Assembly (NCBI GenBank): GCA_905182025.1
Contig: CAJJAA010000009.1
Coordinates: 1-64,000, forward strand
Length of the DNA: 64,000 nucleotides
Origin: an uncultured OM182 clade bacterium
GTDB taxonomy: Bacteria; Pseudomonadota; Gammaproteobacteria; Pseudomonadales; Azotimanducaceae
Direction: 5' to 3'
Both the position numbers and the translations under genes were made by a program. The first letter of the stretch is position 1. Every line of letters begins with the position of its first letter. The notes beneath the pieces were generated by a model, which did no database searches, had not been told where the DNA came from, and saw only the letters and a list, made by a program, of their open reading frames with translations. Positions 51,721-58,725 of this stretch are shown here, piece after piece.

Positions 51721-53805
51721 ATGAGCAGTAAAAAACCTGTCAGGCTGTTGATCCTTGAAGCTTCACAAAATAGAGCTGAAGAGCTTATTGTGTTGTTACG
51801 CAAGGCTGGCCGAGCAACGCGCGCGCACCAAATTGAATCAGCCGAGGATCTCCAAAACCAGCTAAAGGAACAGAAATGGGATTTGTTATTGGGCGTGTCC
51901 GAAGCCAATGATCTGACTATGGAGCAAGCTATTGGAATTATCCGTGAATCAGAGCGAGACATTCCGATAATCCTCATTGCCGAAGGCCGTGACCCTGAAT
52001 CAATTACCGCGGGACTAAGATTAGGCGCACTGGACGTCGCCCTTGATGATGATGATGAGCGGCTCACAATGATAATAGAGCGAGAGCTATCAAACCTCTA
52101 TCATCGCCGGGAAAGACGTCGAGCAGAGAAAGAAGTCAGTGAGATTGATCGGCGAAACCAATTATTACTCGCAAGCTCAACCGCGGCGATCGGCTATGTG
52201 CATGAAGGGATGCATATTTACACGAACAGCACCTACTCCAAGATGTTTGGCTATGAAGATCCTGATGATTTCGCAGGGATTCCGATCATAGATCTAATCT
52301 CATCATCGGATCAGGGAAAATTTAAAGCGTTTCTGAAATCTTACGATAAGAATGAGTCTGAATCAGAGGAATTCATCTGTGTAACGAGTGAAGACAAGCA
52401 AATCACAGCGAGCCTATCTCTGTCTCCTGCGACTTACGATGGCGAATCCTGTACTCAAGTAATCTTCAAAGTTAGCAGCGATGCTGACACGGCTTACGAA
52501 GAACGCATCAAAGAGCTTTCGAGCCAGGATCTTCTTACAGGGTTACCCAACCGCGCATCTCTAATCGAACAGCTTGACACTGCGGTGGACAAATCAAGTA
52601 ACCAGGGGCAAGCATCGATACTGATGTACATTAGTATCGACAACTTTGCCAAGCTGAGAACTGAGGCGGGAATATCCAATGCCGATCTAGTTCTTGCAGA
52701 TCTTGCCAATCTGTTAGCGGAACTTACCGCAGAAGAGCATCTCATCGCGAGGTTTGGTGATGATGTGTTCGCACTGCTTTACAACAGCGGCGACAAAGAA
52801 GCGGCGGCACAAATGGCAGAAAATCTGCGCGGCCAAGTAGAAGAACGTATGTCGGATGTGGCAGGTAAATCTTACCAATCAACGACCAGTATCGGCTTAG
52901 CATTAGTCTCAGAAAGTTCTTCCAGCGCTGAGGACGTAATATCCCGAGCCTACCAGGCCTGTACATCCATGGAGAGTGGAAACGGCGTTAATTTCTACCA
53001 AGCAGCCGAAGTGAAGATGGGTGAAGCAGGCGTGTCACTTACCTCGGAAAACATAAAGGACATGATAAAGACAGCCATTGAAAACAATGCCTTCAAACTC
53101 ATGTTCCAACCGATCATCAGCTTACACGGTGACGATGACGAACAATTCGAGGTTCTTTTACGCCTAGTAGATGACGACGACAATGAGCTCCTACCAGGTC
53201 AATTTCTGGGTCCCGCCGAAGATGCGGGGCTACTTGAGAAACTCGATCGCTGGGTAATCCTACAGTCGATAAAAATGCTGTCTGAACATCGTAGTACTGG
53301 CAGTAAGGCGAAACTCTTTATTAACCTCACCCATAAATCGATGTCTGACGAAACCTTTTTGCCTTGGATGAGTGTTGCGCTGAAAGCTGCAAAACTCCCC
53401 AGCGACGCAGTCATCCTGCAAATACATGAAAGCGATGCAACCGCATATATCAAACAGGCTGCGAGCTTTACTAAAGGCATGTCAGCGCTTCACTGCAAAA
53501 CCTCCATCAATCACTTTGGCTGCTCTCTAAATCCAATGAATCTGCTGAAGCACCTCACACCTGATTTTGTTAAGTTAGACGATTCTTTTGCTCAGGAGAT
53601 TGATCAGAGTGAAGAGAAGCTCGCCGAACTAAAAAAAATGGTTACGTCACTACAAGAAACCGGCGTTCTAACGGCCATTTCCGGCATCGAAGACCCGATG
53701 ATTCTCTCAACGCTTTGGCAAGCGGGTATTACTTTCATCCAAGGTTACTATTTATCACCGCCGCTCGAAAACATGGACTATGATTTCGCTTCAGAAGACA
53801 CCTGA
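51721..53805 (+). CDS. fimX: FimX-like c-di-GMP receptor, REC-PAS-degenerate GGDEF-degenerate EAL
   Basis: 694 aa, close to the length I recall for Pseudomonas aeruginosa FimX, with the same neighbourhood (psd upstream, serB downstream). REC domain (about 7-120) lacks the phosphorylatable Asp: DLLLGVS takes the place of the usual D-LLD. PAS domain about 140-255. The GGDEF site reads GDDVF (346-350), comparable to GDSIF in FimX. EAL is EVL (477-479), and the DDFG loop has HFGC. So it should bind, not make or break, c-di-GMP. FimX controls type IV pilus assembly; no pil genes are here. Confidence 0.85.
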   Translation: MSSKKPVRLLILEASQNRAEELIVLLRKAGRATRAHQIESAEDLQNQLKEQKWDLLLGVSEANDLTMEQAIGIIRESERDIPIILIAEGRDPESITAGLRLGALDVALDDDDERLTMIIERELSNLYHRRERRRAEKEVSEIDRRNQLLLASSTAAIGYVHEGMHIYTNSTYSKMFGYEDPDDFAGIPIIDLISSSDQGKFKAFLKSYDKNESESEEFICVTSEDKQITASLSLSPATYDGESCTQVIFKVSSDADTAYEERIKELSSQDLLTGLPNRASLIEQLDTAVDKSSNQGQASILMYISIDNFAKLRTEAGISNADLVLADLANLLAELTAEEHLIARFGDDVFALLYNSGDKEAAAQMAENLRGQVEERMSDVAGKSYQSTTSIGLALVSESSSSAEDVISRAYQACTSMESGNGVNFYQAAEVKMGEAGVSLTSENIKDMIKTAIENNAFKLMFQPIISLHGDDDEQFEVLLRLVDDDDNELLPGQFLGPAEDAGLLEKLDRWVILQSIKMLSEHRSTGSKAKLFINLTHKSMSDETFLPWMSVALKAAKLPSDAVILQIHESDATAYIKQAASFTKGMSALHCKTSINHFGCSLNPMNLLKHLTPDFVKLDDSFAQEIDQSEEKLAELKKMVTSLQETGVLTAISGIEDPMILSTLWQAGITFIQGYYLSPPLENMDYDFASEDT

Positions 53806-53847: not shown

Positions 53848-55095
53848 TTACATATTCACATCAAATTCAGGCGGCTTTTGAGCATCTAGAACCGCCGCAT
53901 CTCGGTCACGAATACCCATCAAGTATAAAATACTGTCTAACCCCATCGTCGAAATCGATTGCTTGGCATTCTGCCTGACAATCGGTTTTGCGTGAAACGC
54001 AATGCCCAACCCCGCGGTAGCGAGCATGAGTAGATCATTCGCACCATCTCCGACGGCAATCACTTGCTCCATCGATATATTTTCTTGGCTCGCAAGTTCT
54101 TTTAGTAACTCAGCTTTCATTTTAGCATCGACGACAGGGTCGATTACTCTACCGCTCAGGACACCATCTTCAATTTCGAGTTCATTGGCATAGACATAGT
54201 CTACCCCCAATCTTTGCTGTAGAGCCTTAGCGAAATAGGTGAACCCACCAGAGAGGATCGCTGTCTTGTAGCCAAGTTTGTTTAACATTTCAAAAAGGTG
54301 TTCGACACCTTCCGTCAATGGTAAGGATGCCGCAACTTGCTGTAAACACGCCTCATCGAGCCCTTTAAGCAAAGCAACTCGCTGCCTCAAACTGTCGGAA
54401 AAATCGATTTCGCCACGCATCGCACATTCGGTGACCTCCGCCACCTGCGCACCAACACCCGCGAGTATCGCCAACTCATCAATCACTTCCGTGGAGATCA
54501 ACGTAGAATCCATGTCGAAGGCAATAAGACGTCGATTTCTTCGAAAAATACTGTCTTCCTGCACCGCGATATCAATATCCCATTCGCCACTCACCGTCAT
54601 CAGCGCTGCGCGAAATTCGGTTGAATCATGAGGTCGCCCCTTCAAAGAGAACTCGACGCAGGCTTTCACGGCGTCATCATCGGCGACGAGCGGAACACGG
54701 CCGGATAATCGAACAATCGCATCAATGTTTAAGCCGTGATTAGCAACAACGCGGCTGACCTCTGCAATGTGAGTAGATTTAATACGACGAGCAAGTAAGG
54801 TAAGTATAAATCTTGATTGACCCTGCGACTCAACCCAATCATCGTAGCTCTCCTCGAGCACGGTCGAAAATTTCACTTTGACACCGAGCGAAGTGGCGCA
54901 GGCCAAAATACGATCATGGATCGCTTTATTATCCGCAGGCAAATTAACCAGCAAACCGAGGTTTAGATGGTTGTGAATGACAGCCTGACCGATATCGAGA
55001 ATATCAATATCGAACTGTCCAAGTAGCTCGGTAAAGGAGGCGGTTACGCCAGGTCGATCCTCACCGGACACATTGAGGAGCACTAAATCAGCCAC
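53848..55095 (-). CDS. serB: Phosphoserine phosphatase SerB with two ACT domains
   Basis: 415 aa, longer than Escherichia coli SerB but similar to the Pseudomonas form. Two ACT-type domains at about 3-80 and 95-175, then a HAD domain with DMDST at 194-198 (nucleophile Asp194, acid Asp196), SGGFTYFA and GDGANDLLML. It dephosphorylates phosphoserine in serine synthesis; the ACT domains suggest amino-acid control. Convergent with fimX. Confidence 0.95.
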   Translation of the reverse strand: MADLVLLNVSGEDRPGVTASFTELLGQFDIDILDIGQAVIHNHLNLGLLVNLPADNKAIHDRILACATSLGVKVKFSTVLEESYDDWVESQGQSRFILTLLARRIKSTHIAEVSRVVANHGLNIDAIVRLSGRVPLVADDDAVKACVEFSLKGRPHDSTEFRAALMTVSGEWDIDIAVQEDSIFRRNRRLIAFDMDSTLISTEVIDELAILAGVGAQVAEVTECAMRGEIDFSDSLRQRVALLKGLDEACLQQVAASLPLTEGVEHLFEMLNKLGYKTAILSGGFTYFAKALQQRLGVDYVYANELEIEDGVLSGRVIDPVVDAKMKAELLKELASQENISMEQVIAVGDGANDLLMLATAGLGIAFHAKPIVRQNAKQSISTMGLDSILYLMGIRDRDAAVLDAQKPPEFDVNM

Positions 55096-55230: not shown

Positions 55231-56304
55231 ATGGGATCAAGCAAAGCCAAACTTCGAACACTCTTGTTTCTCTTGAGTCCGTTGCTACTCAGTGCATTAG
55301 TGTCCAGCTATCTCATTGTCAGCATTGCCTCAGAAGAACTGCAGTCGCAGGCAAATCGTTTTGGACAGGGCGTAACAGACCATCTCGCCATTTTGGTTTC
55401 AGACCATCTGGTGGCGAACGATCGCTTAAGTCTAAATGTCTTGCTGGCGGAACTAATGAAGAAAGACAATTTCGATTACGCCTCGGTTCTGGATAGCAGT
55501 GGAAATCTGGTGGCACAAGCTGGCAGGCGCACATCAAATTCACGCATGTTTTCTCAACAGGTCACATCCCAAGATTCCGTCATGGGAGCGGTTCAAACCG
55601 GATTTCGAATCGATATGCTTGAGACGCGAATCAATGGCCTGCTGATGGTATGTTTATCAGCACATGCGTTATTGATCGCCATTGTTGGTCTTTTAATTTA
55701 TTGGTATGGAGACTTGTTGTATCTATTGGTTGCCTTAAAGCACTCAATCACGACAAAAAAACCATCGAATTCTACAGTCGACATAGAGGCTAACGAGCTC
55801 GTTATGGAGCGGACGTTTTTGGTATTAAAATTACGCCCAGCACGATTACTGGCGCAAAATCTGCCGAAAATTCATCAAGCACTTTCACTTTACGGAGGCC
55901 GAGTTGAACAGGTAGGAGACGATCTGCTGGTAACATTTGATCAAGCCAATCAACTCTTTCAAGCCGTCTGCTCTGGATTACTGACAATCGAGTTATTCGG
56001 CCATACGAATATTCATATCAAAGCCGCGTTACATCAGGCGAGAGATGCCAATGACGATGTCGCTGTCGAGAAAGCAAGGAAACATACGAGCTATCTTGCA
56101 TCAATGGCCGAAGAAAGTTTCCTCACCAGCAAACAAGTAGCAACCCTGCTGCAGATGACCGACAGCGAATCAAACGCTGAAAACTACCAGCTTACAAATT
56201 TTCACAGCACAATGACGCCTGACGGTGAGGTTTATATTATTACTGGACTTGAAAACCAGGCCTTGATCGAAGCGCAGGCGCTCAAACTCAACGATCGAAC
56301 GTAG
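55231..56304 (+). CDS. Two-helix membrane protein with degenerate cyclase-like cytoplasmic domain
   Basis: 357 aa from the ATG at 55231; ATG 55201 and a TTG at 55192 are alternatives. Transmembrane helices at about 9-33 and 136-158 bound a periplasmic segment of about 100 residues with a PAS/sensor-like SVLDSSGNLV stretch. The cytoplasmic part contains LYGGRVEQVGDDLLVTF (Gly222, Gly223, Gly229-Asp230-Asp231), which fits the GG...GD...F pattern of class III nucleotide cyclase domains, followed by NIHIKAALHQ. The strand expected to carry the first metal Asp (FLVLKLRP) has none, so catalysis is unlikely. The locus matches a Pseudomonas hypothetical gene between serB and parC. Function unknown. 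Confidence 0.7.
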   Translation: MGSSKAKLRTLLFLLSPLLLSALVSSYLIVSIASEELQSQANRFGQGVTDHLAILVSDHLVANDRLSLNVLLAELMKKDNFDYASVLDSSGNLVAQAGRRTSNSRMFSQQVTSQDSVMGAVQTGFRIDMLETRINGLLMVCLSAHALLIAIVGLLIYWYGDLLYLLVALKHSITTKKPSNSTVDIEANELVMERTFLVLKLRPARLLAQNLPKIHQALSLYGGRVEQVGDDLLVTFDQANQLFQAVCSGLLTIELFGHTNIHIKAALHQARDANDDVAVEKARKHTSYLASMAEESFLTSKQVATLLQMTDSESNAENYQLTNFHSTMTPDGEVYIITGLENQALIEAQALKLNDRT

Positions 56305-56472: not shown

Positions 56473-58725
56473 CTATTGCGGTCGTTCGAGTTTAACGGCA
56501 TCAACCTTTTGGAAACCACGCGGCAATTTCAATCCGCGTCGCGCACGCTCACCCTGATAATGTTCAAGATCTGCGATTTTTAAGCTGAGGTGCCGTTTGC
56601 CGGAATAGACAATAATAGTATCGACTTCAGAGAATACTAAAACAAAACTCATCATTTCCAGCCGATCGGCTACTCGAGCCTTTGGTATACTCATCATTTT
56701 GACGCCTTTACCTCGCCCAAGCACAGGCAGTTCCGATAAAGGAAAGATCAACATTCGACCCTCATTGCTGATCGATGCCACGTACTCGTGCTTTATATCC
56801 GTTACCAGTGAGGGCTGATTGGTGACACCTCCCTTGGGCACCGACATGAGCGACTTACCGGCCTTGTTCTTGGTTATCATGTCTGCAACAGTCGTAACAA
56901 AACCATAACCGGCATCACTGGAGACAAGATACTGCTGATCCAGTTCACCGGTCACCAAACCCGTAAAGCTCGCGCCGGGGGCCGGTTTGACACGGCCGGA
57001 CAAGGGCTCCCCTTGACCCCGAGCTGAGGGCAACGTGTGGCATGCGATCGCGTAGGCTCTACCGGCTGAATCTAAGAAAACGGCATCTTGATTTGATTTA
57101 GCCGGCGCCGCGATTAAAAACCCATCACCGGAGCGGTAATTAAGTTCCGTCGCGTCGACCTCGTGTCCTTTCGCCGCGCGAATCCAACCTTTCTCTGACA
57201 GCACAACGGTAATGGCTTCCGTTGAAATGAGGTCTTTCTCTTTAAAGGCGGCCGATTCTTCACGCTGCACGATAGGAGAGCGCCGTTCATCACCAAAGGC
57301 TGCAGCGTCTGCCATGATTTCTTTTTTTATAAGCGTTTTAAGTCGAGCCTTTGAGTTGATCGTTTTTTCTATATCGGCTCGCTCAAGATCTAACTCATCC
57401 TGTTCACCCTTGATTTTGATCTCTTCTAGTTTTGCCAGTTGACGCAACCGCAGGTCCAGAATCGCATCGGCCTGAATTTCTGAGATGTTGTAACGCTGGA
57501 TCAAGGCTTGCTTAGGTTTTTCTTCGGTACGAACAATCCGAATGACTTCATCAATATTAAGGTAGGCGATCATCAAGCCTTCCAGGATATGTAGTCGATC
57601 AAGAATCTTCTGCAGCCTGAAATTAAGGCGTTTCAACACAGTATCTGTTCTAAATGTTAACCACTCATTGAGCAGTTCAGCGAGCGGTTTCACCGCCGGT
57701 CGTCCATCAAGGCCAATCAGATTAAAGTTAACTCGATGGCTGCGCTCAAGATCGGTTGAGGCGAATAGATGCCCCATTAGGCCATCAAGATCAATCCTAT
57801 TAGATCTCGGAACAACAACGATTCGGGTAGGATTTTCGTGATCTGACTCGTCACGGAGATCGACAACCATCGGCAATTTCTTCGCCTGCATCTGAGCCGC
57901 TATCTGTTCAAGAATTTTTGTACCCGATACTTGAAACGGCAAAGCCGTAATGACGATCTCACCGTCTTCGATAAGATAAACGGCGCGGGTTTTGACAGAG
58001 CCTTTACCTGTTTCGTAAATCTGCTGTATATCTTCCCGGCTAGAAATTATCTCTGCTTCGGTCGGAAAATCAGGCCCCTGAATATGCTCCAAGAGTTCTT
58101 TGGTTGTCGTCTTAGGCTTGTCCAACAACCTTATGCAGGCGCTGGCAACTTCGTTTAAGTTGTGCGGAGGGATGTCCGTCGCCATGCCAACAGCAATACC
58201 AGCGCCACCGTTAAGCAATATATTTGGTAACCTAGCAGGTAAATTTACCGGCTCTTCCCGTGTGCCGTCAAAATTCGGAATCCAATCGACCGTGCCTTGC
58301 GCCAACTCACCCAACAAAACTTCTGCATAGCGGGTTAATTTCGACTCTGTATATCGCATTGCTGCGAAAGACTTTGGATCATCCGGCGCACCCCAGTTAC
58401 CCTGTCCATCGACCAGCGGATAGCGGTAAGTGAAGGATTGTGCCATCAACACCATCGCTTCGTAACTAGCCGCATCACCATGCGGGTGAAACTTACCAAT
58501 GACGTCGCCAACGGTTCTCGCAGACTTAGCATATTTCGCATCCGCCGTAAGTCGCAATTCTGACATCGCGTATACGATGCGACGCTGCACCGGTTTTAAA
58601 CCGTCACCAATAAAAGGCAAGGCTCTATCATTAATTACGTACATAGCGTAATTGAGATAAGCACTTTCTGTATACTGCTTCAGCGAAATTGTTTCTATGT
58701 CACCAGTATTCGTCGTTTCACTCAT
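56473..58725 (-). CDS. parC: DNA topoisomerase IV subunit A
   Basis: 750 aa. The type IIA cleavage domain has the catalytic Tyr125 in [10 protein letters not shown], and the C-terminal pinwheel has the usual repeated blades. In the quinolone-resistance region, [12 protein letters not shown], the residue equivalent to Escherichia coli Ser80 is Ala85, while Glu89 (Glu84 equivalent) is kept. It decatenates daughter chromosomes with ParE, encoded 53 bp upstream in the same operon. Confidence 0.96.

Follow-up and report, generated by a model that had tools for sequence, protein, structure and literature searches.

The window, a 64,000-nucleotide stretch of DNA from an uncultured OM182 clade bacterium, carries a gene for a membrane protein of 357 aa in the interval between serB and parC. 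The gene, referred to below as the pseudo-cyclase gene, and its neighbours are as follows.

51721..53805, forward strand: fimX, encoding a PAS-GGDEF-EAL protein (ORF list and domain match)
53848..55095, reverse strand: serB, divergent from the pseudo-cyclase gene (name from the original prediction and conserved context)
55231..56304, forward strand: pseudo-cyclase receptor gene, 357 aa, with an ATG start and a TAG stop (56302-56304)
56473..58725, reverse strand: parC, convergent to the pseudo-cyclase gene (name from the original prediction)

The original prediction had placed an ORF at this position between serB and parC, and its coordinates hold, from the ATG at 55231 to the stop codon at 56302-56304. 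The ORF list offers an alternative TTG start 39 bases upstream, but in L039, the closest relative, a Met codon aligns with the ATG at 55231. The closeness to fimX that had been pointed out is also real, with one gene, serB, in between, and the arrangement is widely kept: fimX, serB, the pseudo-cyclase gene and parC are grouped in 11 of the 15 first stretches (eight by tblastn and three by profile), the remaining four lacking at least one of the four genes, partly because the contig or stretch ends. Read by eye from its translation, FimX itself looks degenerate, its GGDEF motif reading GDDVF and its EAL motif EVL. Outside the window, the same genome encodes two cyclases that match PF00211 (G000:C9:87858-88415 and G000:C18:7573-8115), and the host probably has, on this sequence evidence, cyclic nucleotide signalling that is independent of the 55231-56304 protein. 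One of the two (L156) has a complete motif set by eye.

The protein divides into a membrane and periplasmic half and a cytoplasmic half in an AlphaFold2 model built from eight input sequences (mean pLDDT 80.2; pTM 0.46 for the whole chain). The models bear out the proposed periplasmic domain between two helices, in that two hydrophobic helices flank a strand-rich part.

55258..55326, forward strand: first membrane helix, approximately residues 10-32; hydrophobic, inside model helix 3-61, ends placed by eye
55327..55635, forward strand: periplasmic Cache/PAS-like domain, approximately residues 33-135; model m38fd17825d7a, pLDDT 84.2
55636..55704, forward strand: second membrane helix, approximately residues 136-158; hydrophobic, inside model helix 128-171, ends placed by eye
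55735..55809, forward strand: linker, residues 169-193; pLDDT below 50 at 169-190
55810..56250, forward strand: degenerate class III cyclase-homology domain, residues 194-340 (model, structure matches and hhalign)

The predicted C-terminal domain has a cyclase fold. VIA comparison of residues 188-346 matches 6sir (Z 17.2, rmsd 3.6, 146 aligned) and 3r5g, P. aeruginosa CyaB (Z 17.1, rmsd 3.6, 150 aligned), and all 50 of the matches listed are cyclases, with Z from 17.2 to 15.9. Foldseek gives 4wp9 (Ma1120) as the best match of the model (E 7.0e-7), and nucleotide cyclases account for 39 of the 46 matches at E≤0.001, the other seven being DosP (three), PA0861 (two), a WalK model (one) and 4u64 (one). 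Fold and order of elements are therefore predicted to be alike in this domain and in the class III adenylate/guanylate cyclase catalytic domain (PF00211; CyaB 3r5g, RhGC 6sir, Ma1120 4wp9). The original prediction had described a degenerate domain of this kind and had named comparison with cyclase folds as the check; the outcome was cyclase-like, and the unrelated fold that would have spoken against it did not appear. Folded alone, the periplasmic part has 4u64, the periplasmic output domain of a LapD orthologue, in first place (Foldseek 1.8e-4; VIA Z 12.4, rmsd 2.9, 113 aligned), tied with CitA (Z 12.2). Searches with the 55231-56304 protein itself returned neither HAMP nor PF00211 from Pfam, no match from a sequence search of the PDB and no relative among the viral contigs scanned; a Pep3_Vps18 match (E 0.086) was taken as chance.

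Profile comparison by hhalign used as its reference 22 PF00211-matching domains from the pseudo-cyclase genome and relatives. The eight-sequence subfamily of the 55231-56304 protein alone reaches 7.7%, the pseudo-cyclase family (19 rows) 97.9% (E 3.6e-12), a set of 71 degenerate rows 99.2% (2.2e-18), family f39 (six rows) 99.9% and three intact rows 100%, with controls against the GGDEF and EAL domains of the neighbouring FimX at 0.0-1.1%. Because the subfamily scores 7.7% against 97.9-100% for the wider sets, its link to cyclases runs via intermediates, and since the subfamily is barely recognisable by sequence and has no PF00211 match, the cyclase assignment rests on the fold model together with these intermediates.

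Catalytic positions come from aligning 80 homologues with MAFFT, the intact protein L136 serving as guide, and the roles assigned to the aligned positions are those that we take to hold for class III cyclases. The GG...GD...F pattern and the IHIKAALHQ strand that had first suggested a cyclase are present (Y221-G222-G223, G229-D230-D231 and F236; residues 262-270), and so is the defect described with them, the strand for the first metal Asp reading F-L-V-L-K200-L with no acidic residue. Five of the six catalytic positions are replaced, setting the domain apart from intact homologues at the same locus, which score with PF00211. Of the two metal-binding Asp, the first (D1) has become K200 and the second (D2) survives as D230, the only catalytic residue kept; Q227 and V277 stand at the places of the substrate Lys and Asp/Thr, and K284 and Y288 at those of the transition-state Asn and Arg. 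Four of these positions can be followed through the 11-member clade of the protein.

55828..55830, forward strand: K200, replacing the first metal Asp; K in 10 and R in one of 11 clade members
55918..55920, forward strand: D230, aligned with the second metal Asp; retained in this protein and D in four of 11 clade members
56080..56082, forward strand: K284, replacing the transition-state Asn; in all 11 clade members
56092..56094, forward strand: Y288, replacing the transition-state Arg; in all 11 clade members

The 'GD' lacks family-wide conservation, the D230 column being D in four and acidic in eight of the 11 clade rows. Eight residues are invariant in the clade (P203, L250, K284, Y288, L289, A290, V334 and L345), and 17 of 156 columns are conserved in at least 10 rows; three of the six former catalytic columns are among the 17, a modest enrichment of conserved residues at former catalytic positions (hypergeometric P 0.018). 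Across the 80 homologues, all four metal and transition-state residues are kept in three (L136, L123 and L153), two in four, one in 18, including the 55231-56304 protein, and none in 55, with the catalytic columns of distant rows hanging on uncertain alignment and single kept residues possibly due to chance. In family f39, five of six rows have Glu at D1, Arg at the Lys place and Asp at D2, and the sixth (L115) keeps D1, Lys and D2, with His and Gln at the Asn and Arg places.

Matches to the 12-row profile A1 occur in 222 of 293 genomes of the order, many of those listed covering only the N-terminal half, which is common to other sensors. Among 60 serB-anchored stretches, the same profile finds a homologue in 41 and none in the other 19; no gene separates serB from parC in nine of the 19 (9/60 overall), so the gene can be missing. 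One stretch without an A1 match (L078) holds a further divergent homologue recognised by eye only. In family f38 (L097:3162-4487 and L106:3125-4555), the neighbour of serB is not the pseudo-cyclase gene but one for a 440-480 aa membrane protein that, judged by eye, resembles DedA and PAP2 proteins. The position beside serB is otherwise stable: 74 of the 80 homologues lie within 650 bases of a divergent serB, two are farther away (L032, 4.7 kb; L143, 1.8 kb), and SerB is absent from the fetched stretch in four (L028, L138, L140 and L142). With parC in reach, 37 of 41 non-intact rows end no more than 353 bases from it, and the three intact rows are 1.1-1.5 kb away. A profile scan with A3 gave seven loci. 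Four of them, L039, L040, L044 and L045, duplicate L024, L026, L028 and L025 and do not enter the set of 80.

The three intact homologues (L136, L123 and L153) are themselves located between serB and parC, and a fourth intact copy, L210, from the same genus as L123 and outside the 80, adjoins serB. As the 80 rows mix serB-anchored stretches (one intact, L123, among 41) with gene-anchored ones, three intact in 80 is not an estimate of frequency. In a quick-search tree, unrooted and with many long branches, the three intact serB-locus proteins cluster with three intact copies from elsewhere (SH-aLRT 100), so that orthology of the intact and degenerate serB-locus proteins rests on position more than on the tree; the intact copies at this locus may reflect replacement by another copy.

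HAMP is matched in four of the 80 homologues, the three intact proteins and L142. Beyond the order, PF10144 is matched in 23 of 184 genomes of the class, and 14 of 18 stretches fetched from such genomes contain a class III cyclase with HAMP. Thirteen of these 14 have complete motifs, counting L194, whose first motif was missed by the motif pattern and whose Asp is present in the translation; L204 has Lys for Arg. Of the 14, 13 match SMP_2 at E≤0.001, L208 being the exception, and parC and a FimX-like gene flank the cyclase in five (L193, L194, L197, L200 and L206). The remaining four stretches comprise a 215-aa Smp-like ORF (L192) and three in which the same kind of periplasmic domain is joined to other outputs (L201, L202 and L209). 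By eye, the proteins at L201:5040-6344, L202:1048-2889 and L209:2827-5304 join it to PAS, histidine kinase-like and GGDEF-EAL parts, which makes it a shuffled sensor module.

A lipoprotein gene adjoins, on the same strand, each of the 17 cyclases formed by the three intact serB-locus proteins and the 14 from outside the order; the neighbour protein has a lipoprotein-like start and, in several cases, weak TPR matches. The lipoprotein profile, built from seven of the 17 loci that it matches and thus giving 10 independent matches, finds none beside the other 77 homologues, including the 55231-56304 gene, in stretches that extend at least 1.1 kb downstream and in which a very divergent lipoprotein could escape it. 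The Fisher value for lipoprotein against intact site is 1.2e-5, which is no true probability, the homologues being kin by descent. One intact copy, L166, has no lipoprotein within its stretch. The lipoprotein is found in 62 of the 293 genomes (E≤1e-8) and in none of 13 sampled genomes of the pseudo-cyclase's family, and by reading of the listed coordinates it adjoins an A1 or PF00211 match in at least 26 of the 62. Among 20 of these 26 that were fetched, every neighbour is a cyclase that shares this architecture and has all six residues (D, K, D, T, N and R); the stretches were chosen for closeness of the lipoprotein profile (A7) match and the A1 or PF00211 match, so they test the intactness of the neighbour and not how often the neighbour is a cyclase. 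Lipoprotein and complete, predicted working active site appear to go together, and the 55231-56304 protein has neither.

Intact cyclase and lipoprotein look like a two-gene cAMP signalling unit. Such a unit, with a Cache-HAMP-class III cyclase followed by a TPR-like lipoprotein that has an invariant Cys near its start (A7), was seen recurrently (L136, L123, L153, L163, L164, L193-L200, L203-L208 and L210-L229). YfiN pairs with the lipoprotein YfiB, and the unit recalls that pair, but with a class III cyclase. In the portions of the literature available to a search, queries for such a pair and for degenerate cyclases gave no paper on this unit.

Among known systems, SMP_2/YtjB (PF10144) is related to the 55231-56304 protein in its N-terminal membrane and periplasmic part and is likewise divergent from serB. 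The 55231-56304 protein scores 17.7 bits (20.7 in the genome search) against a PF10144 cut-off of 28.9, which the relatives G002 and G031 pass. E. coli YtjB/Smp (L158:4149-4790), a 214-aa divergent neighbour of serB, scores 231.7 bits with SMP_2 and has no cyclase match; the profile of the 80 homologues detects it (3e-20), and 11 of the 80 are themselves members by the NCBIfam YtjB model. The 215-aa relative at L192:4983-5627 is also divergent from serB and lacks a cyclase domain. The difference between the two groups lies in the cyclase-like half, present in the 55231-56304 protein and absent from YtjB. For LapD the likeness lies in the periplasmic fold, where CitA-type sensors come equally close, and the N-terminal part is matched by NCBIfam DgcN/YfiN, the only NCBIfam match (E 5.1e-4, residues 19-114 only), which also matches 22 of the 80 homologues. 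In both comparisons the cytoplasmic part differs, being cyclase-like and not GGDEF-EAL; neither HAMP (Pfam) nor a degenerate GGDEF-EAL (Pfam, and NCBIfam for the C-terminal part) was found.

The f21 homologues L104, L107 and L126 are taken here to be Pseudomonas-like, and by analogy with them PA4961 of P. aeruginosa would have a cyclase-like half. In the accessible text of two papers, PA4961 appears with a PAS/Cache domain at 53-166, tabulated next after FimX (PA4959) (PMC8694187), and as 'uncharacterized' in P. aeruginosa, where PA4960 is serB (PMC7044273). A search for PA4961, YtjB/Smp and degenerate cyclases met, within the sources as far as they were accessible, no study of the pseudo-cyclase gene.

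The predicted fold, the missing catalytic residues and the conserved locus with its intact relatives are consistent with a non-catalytic receptor remodelled from a receptor-type adenylate cyclase, which we consider the likely identity of the 55231-56304 protein; judged by its residues, it can hardly synthesise cAMP or cGMP. The ancestor would have combined a Cache/PAS periplasmic domain, two membrane helices, HAMP, a cyclase domain and a companion lipoprotein, and the serB-parC copy would have lost the HAMP linker, the catalytic residues and the lipoprotein. The absence of HAMP and lipoprotein points to abandonment of an earlier outside-in route. The fixed K200, K284 and Y288 suggest a rebuilt putative binding pocket, which may have been remade for a ligand or partner protein rather than having merely decayed, and a membrane-anchored dimer could relay a signal between the periplasmic domain and the former active site without turnover. 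The pocket may bind a nucleotide, as the original prediction proposed. Because Smp consists of the membrane and periplasmic part only, the functional core probably lies there, and the absence of a cyclase domain from Smp suggests that the periplasmic half is able to function on its own; the cyclase-like domain would then probably serve this core as a regulatory or dimerisation module. Most naturally, a receptor cyclase would have become inactive in one branch and shed its entire cyclase domain in another, a direction of loss that we infer, the tree being unrooted.

The alternative that survives best, unlikely though it must be taken seriously, is that function resides wholly in the periplasmic and membrane domain, with the cyclase-like domain no more than a vanishing scaffold or dimerisation piece, Smp having none. 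The graded series from intact proteins to those with none of the four catalytic residues is in keeping with such a relic, as is E. coli Smp with its lack of a cyclase domain. Selection speaks on both sides. Between the 55231-56304 protein and L039 (85% identity), dN/dS is 0.084 overall, 0.037 at residues 28-128, 0.32 in the linker (169-193) and 0.082 at 194-340, values that are rough because dS is 0.8-1.1; FimX, SerB and ParC of the same two genomes give 0.045, 0.022 and 0.014. The half under stronger constraint varies by pair, the periplasmic one in this pair, as a relic would have it, and the cyclase-like one in L042/L043 (0.166 for the first 170 residues and 0.064 for the last 160); two f21 proteins give 0.243 for the first half and 0.338 for the second. 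Both halves of the 55231-56304 protein are under purifying selection, and the values of 0.082 and 0.064 for the cyclase-like part argue against a vanishing domain, as do the eight residues invariant in all 11 clade members.

Far less probable is an active cyclase of unusual chemistry, with another metal or product, or a half-site donor to another cyclase of the host. The retained D230 and predicted fold fit such an activity, and the two PF00211-matching host cyclases would be available as partners, but D230 is D in only four of the 11 clade members. In a class III dimer one chain supplies both Asp and the other supplies Lys, Thr/Asp, Asn and Arg; of the first set the 55231-56304 protein lacks D1, and of the second it lacks Lys, Thr, Asn and Arg. 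Either half of a composite site would thus be incomplete, and an active composite site with a host cyclase was rejected on residues. A diguanylate-cyclase-type (GGDEF) identity for the C-terminal domain is scarcely credible: GGDEF and class III cyclases share a palm-like core, DgcN/YfiN is the only NCBIfam match and Foldseek also returns structures with GGDEF domains further down (5xgd, 5.3e-4), but the DgcN match is confined to the membrane and periplasmic part, the best fold matches are class III cyclases, and hhalign gives no match between C-terminal profiles and the FimX GGDEF domain (0.1 and 1.1%).

A bolder form of the non-catalytic receptor reading, which we regard as rather improbable, holds that the serB-locus homologues, Smp included, are remains of the two-gene unit of Cache-HAMP adenylate cyclase and lipoprotein, and that in the lineage of the 55231-56304 protein the dead active site gave rise to a LapD-like inside-out receptor on a cyclase fold. 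LapD is an inside-out pseudo-enzyme receptor. Here a metal-free basic pocket, in which K200/R205 of one chain would face R283-K284/Y288 of the other, would control the periplasmic domain from inside, next to FimX.

The class of system was already known; the literature searched, as far as it was accessible, held no study of this pseudo-enzyme branch, whose intact relatives share its locus. With the non-catalytic receptor reading, an uncharacterised gene that adjoins serB in many families of one order gains a testable identity, and the membrane half of a receptor adenylate cyclase is suggested as the origin of PF10144 ('bacterial virulence factor haemolysin', Smp). Ranging from intact through half-degenerate and fully degenerate proteins to ones without the domain, the homologues make up a natural series in which one could look for the step that abolished catalysis and for the function that persisted.
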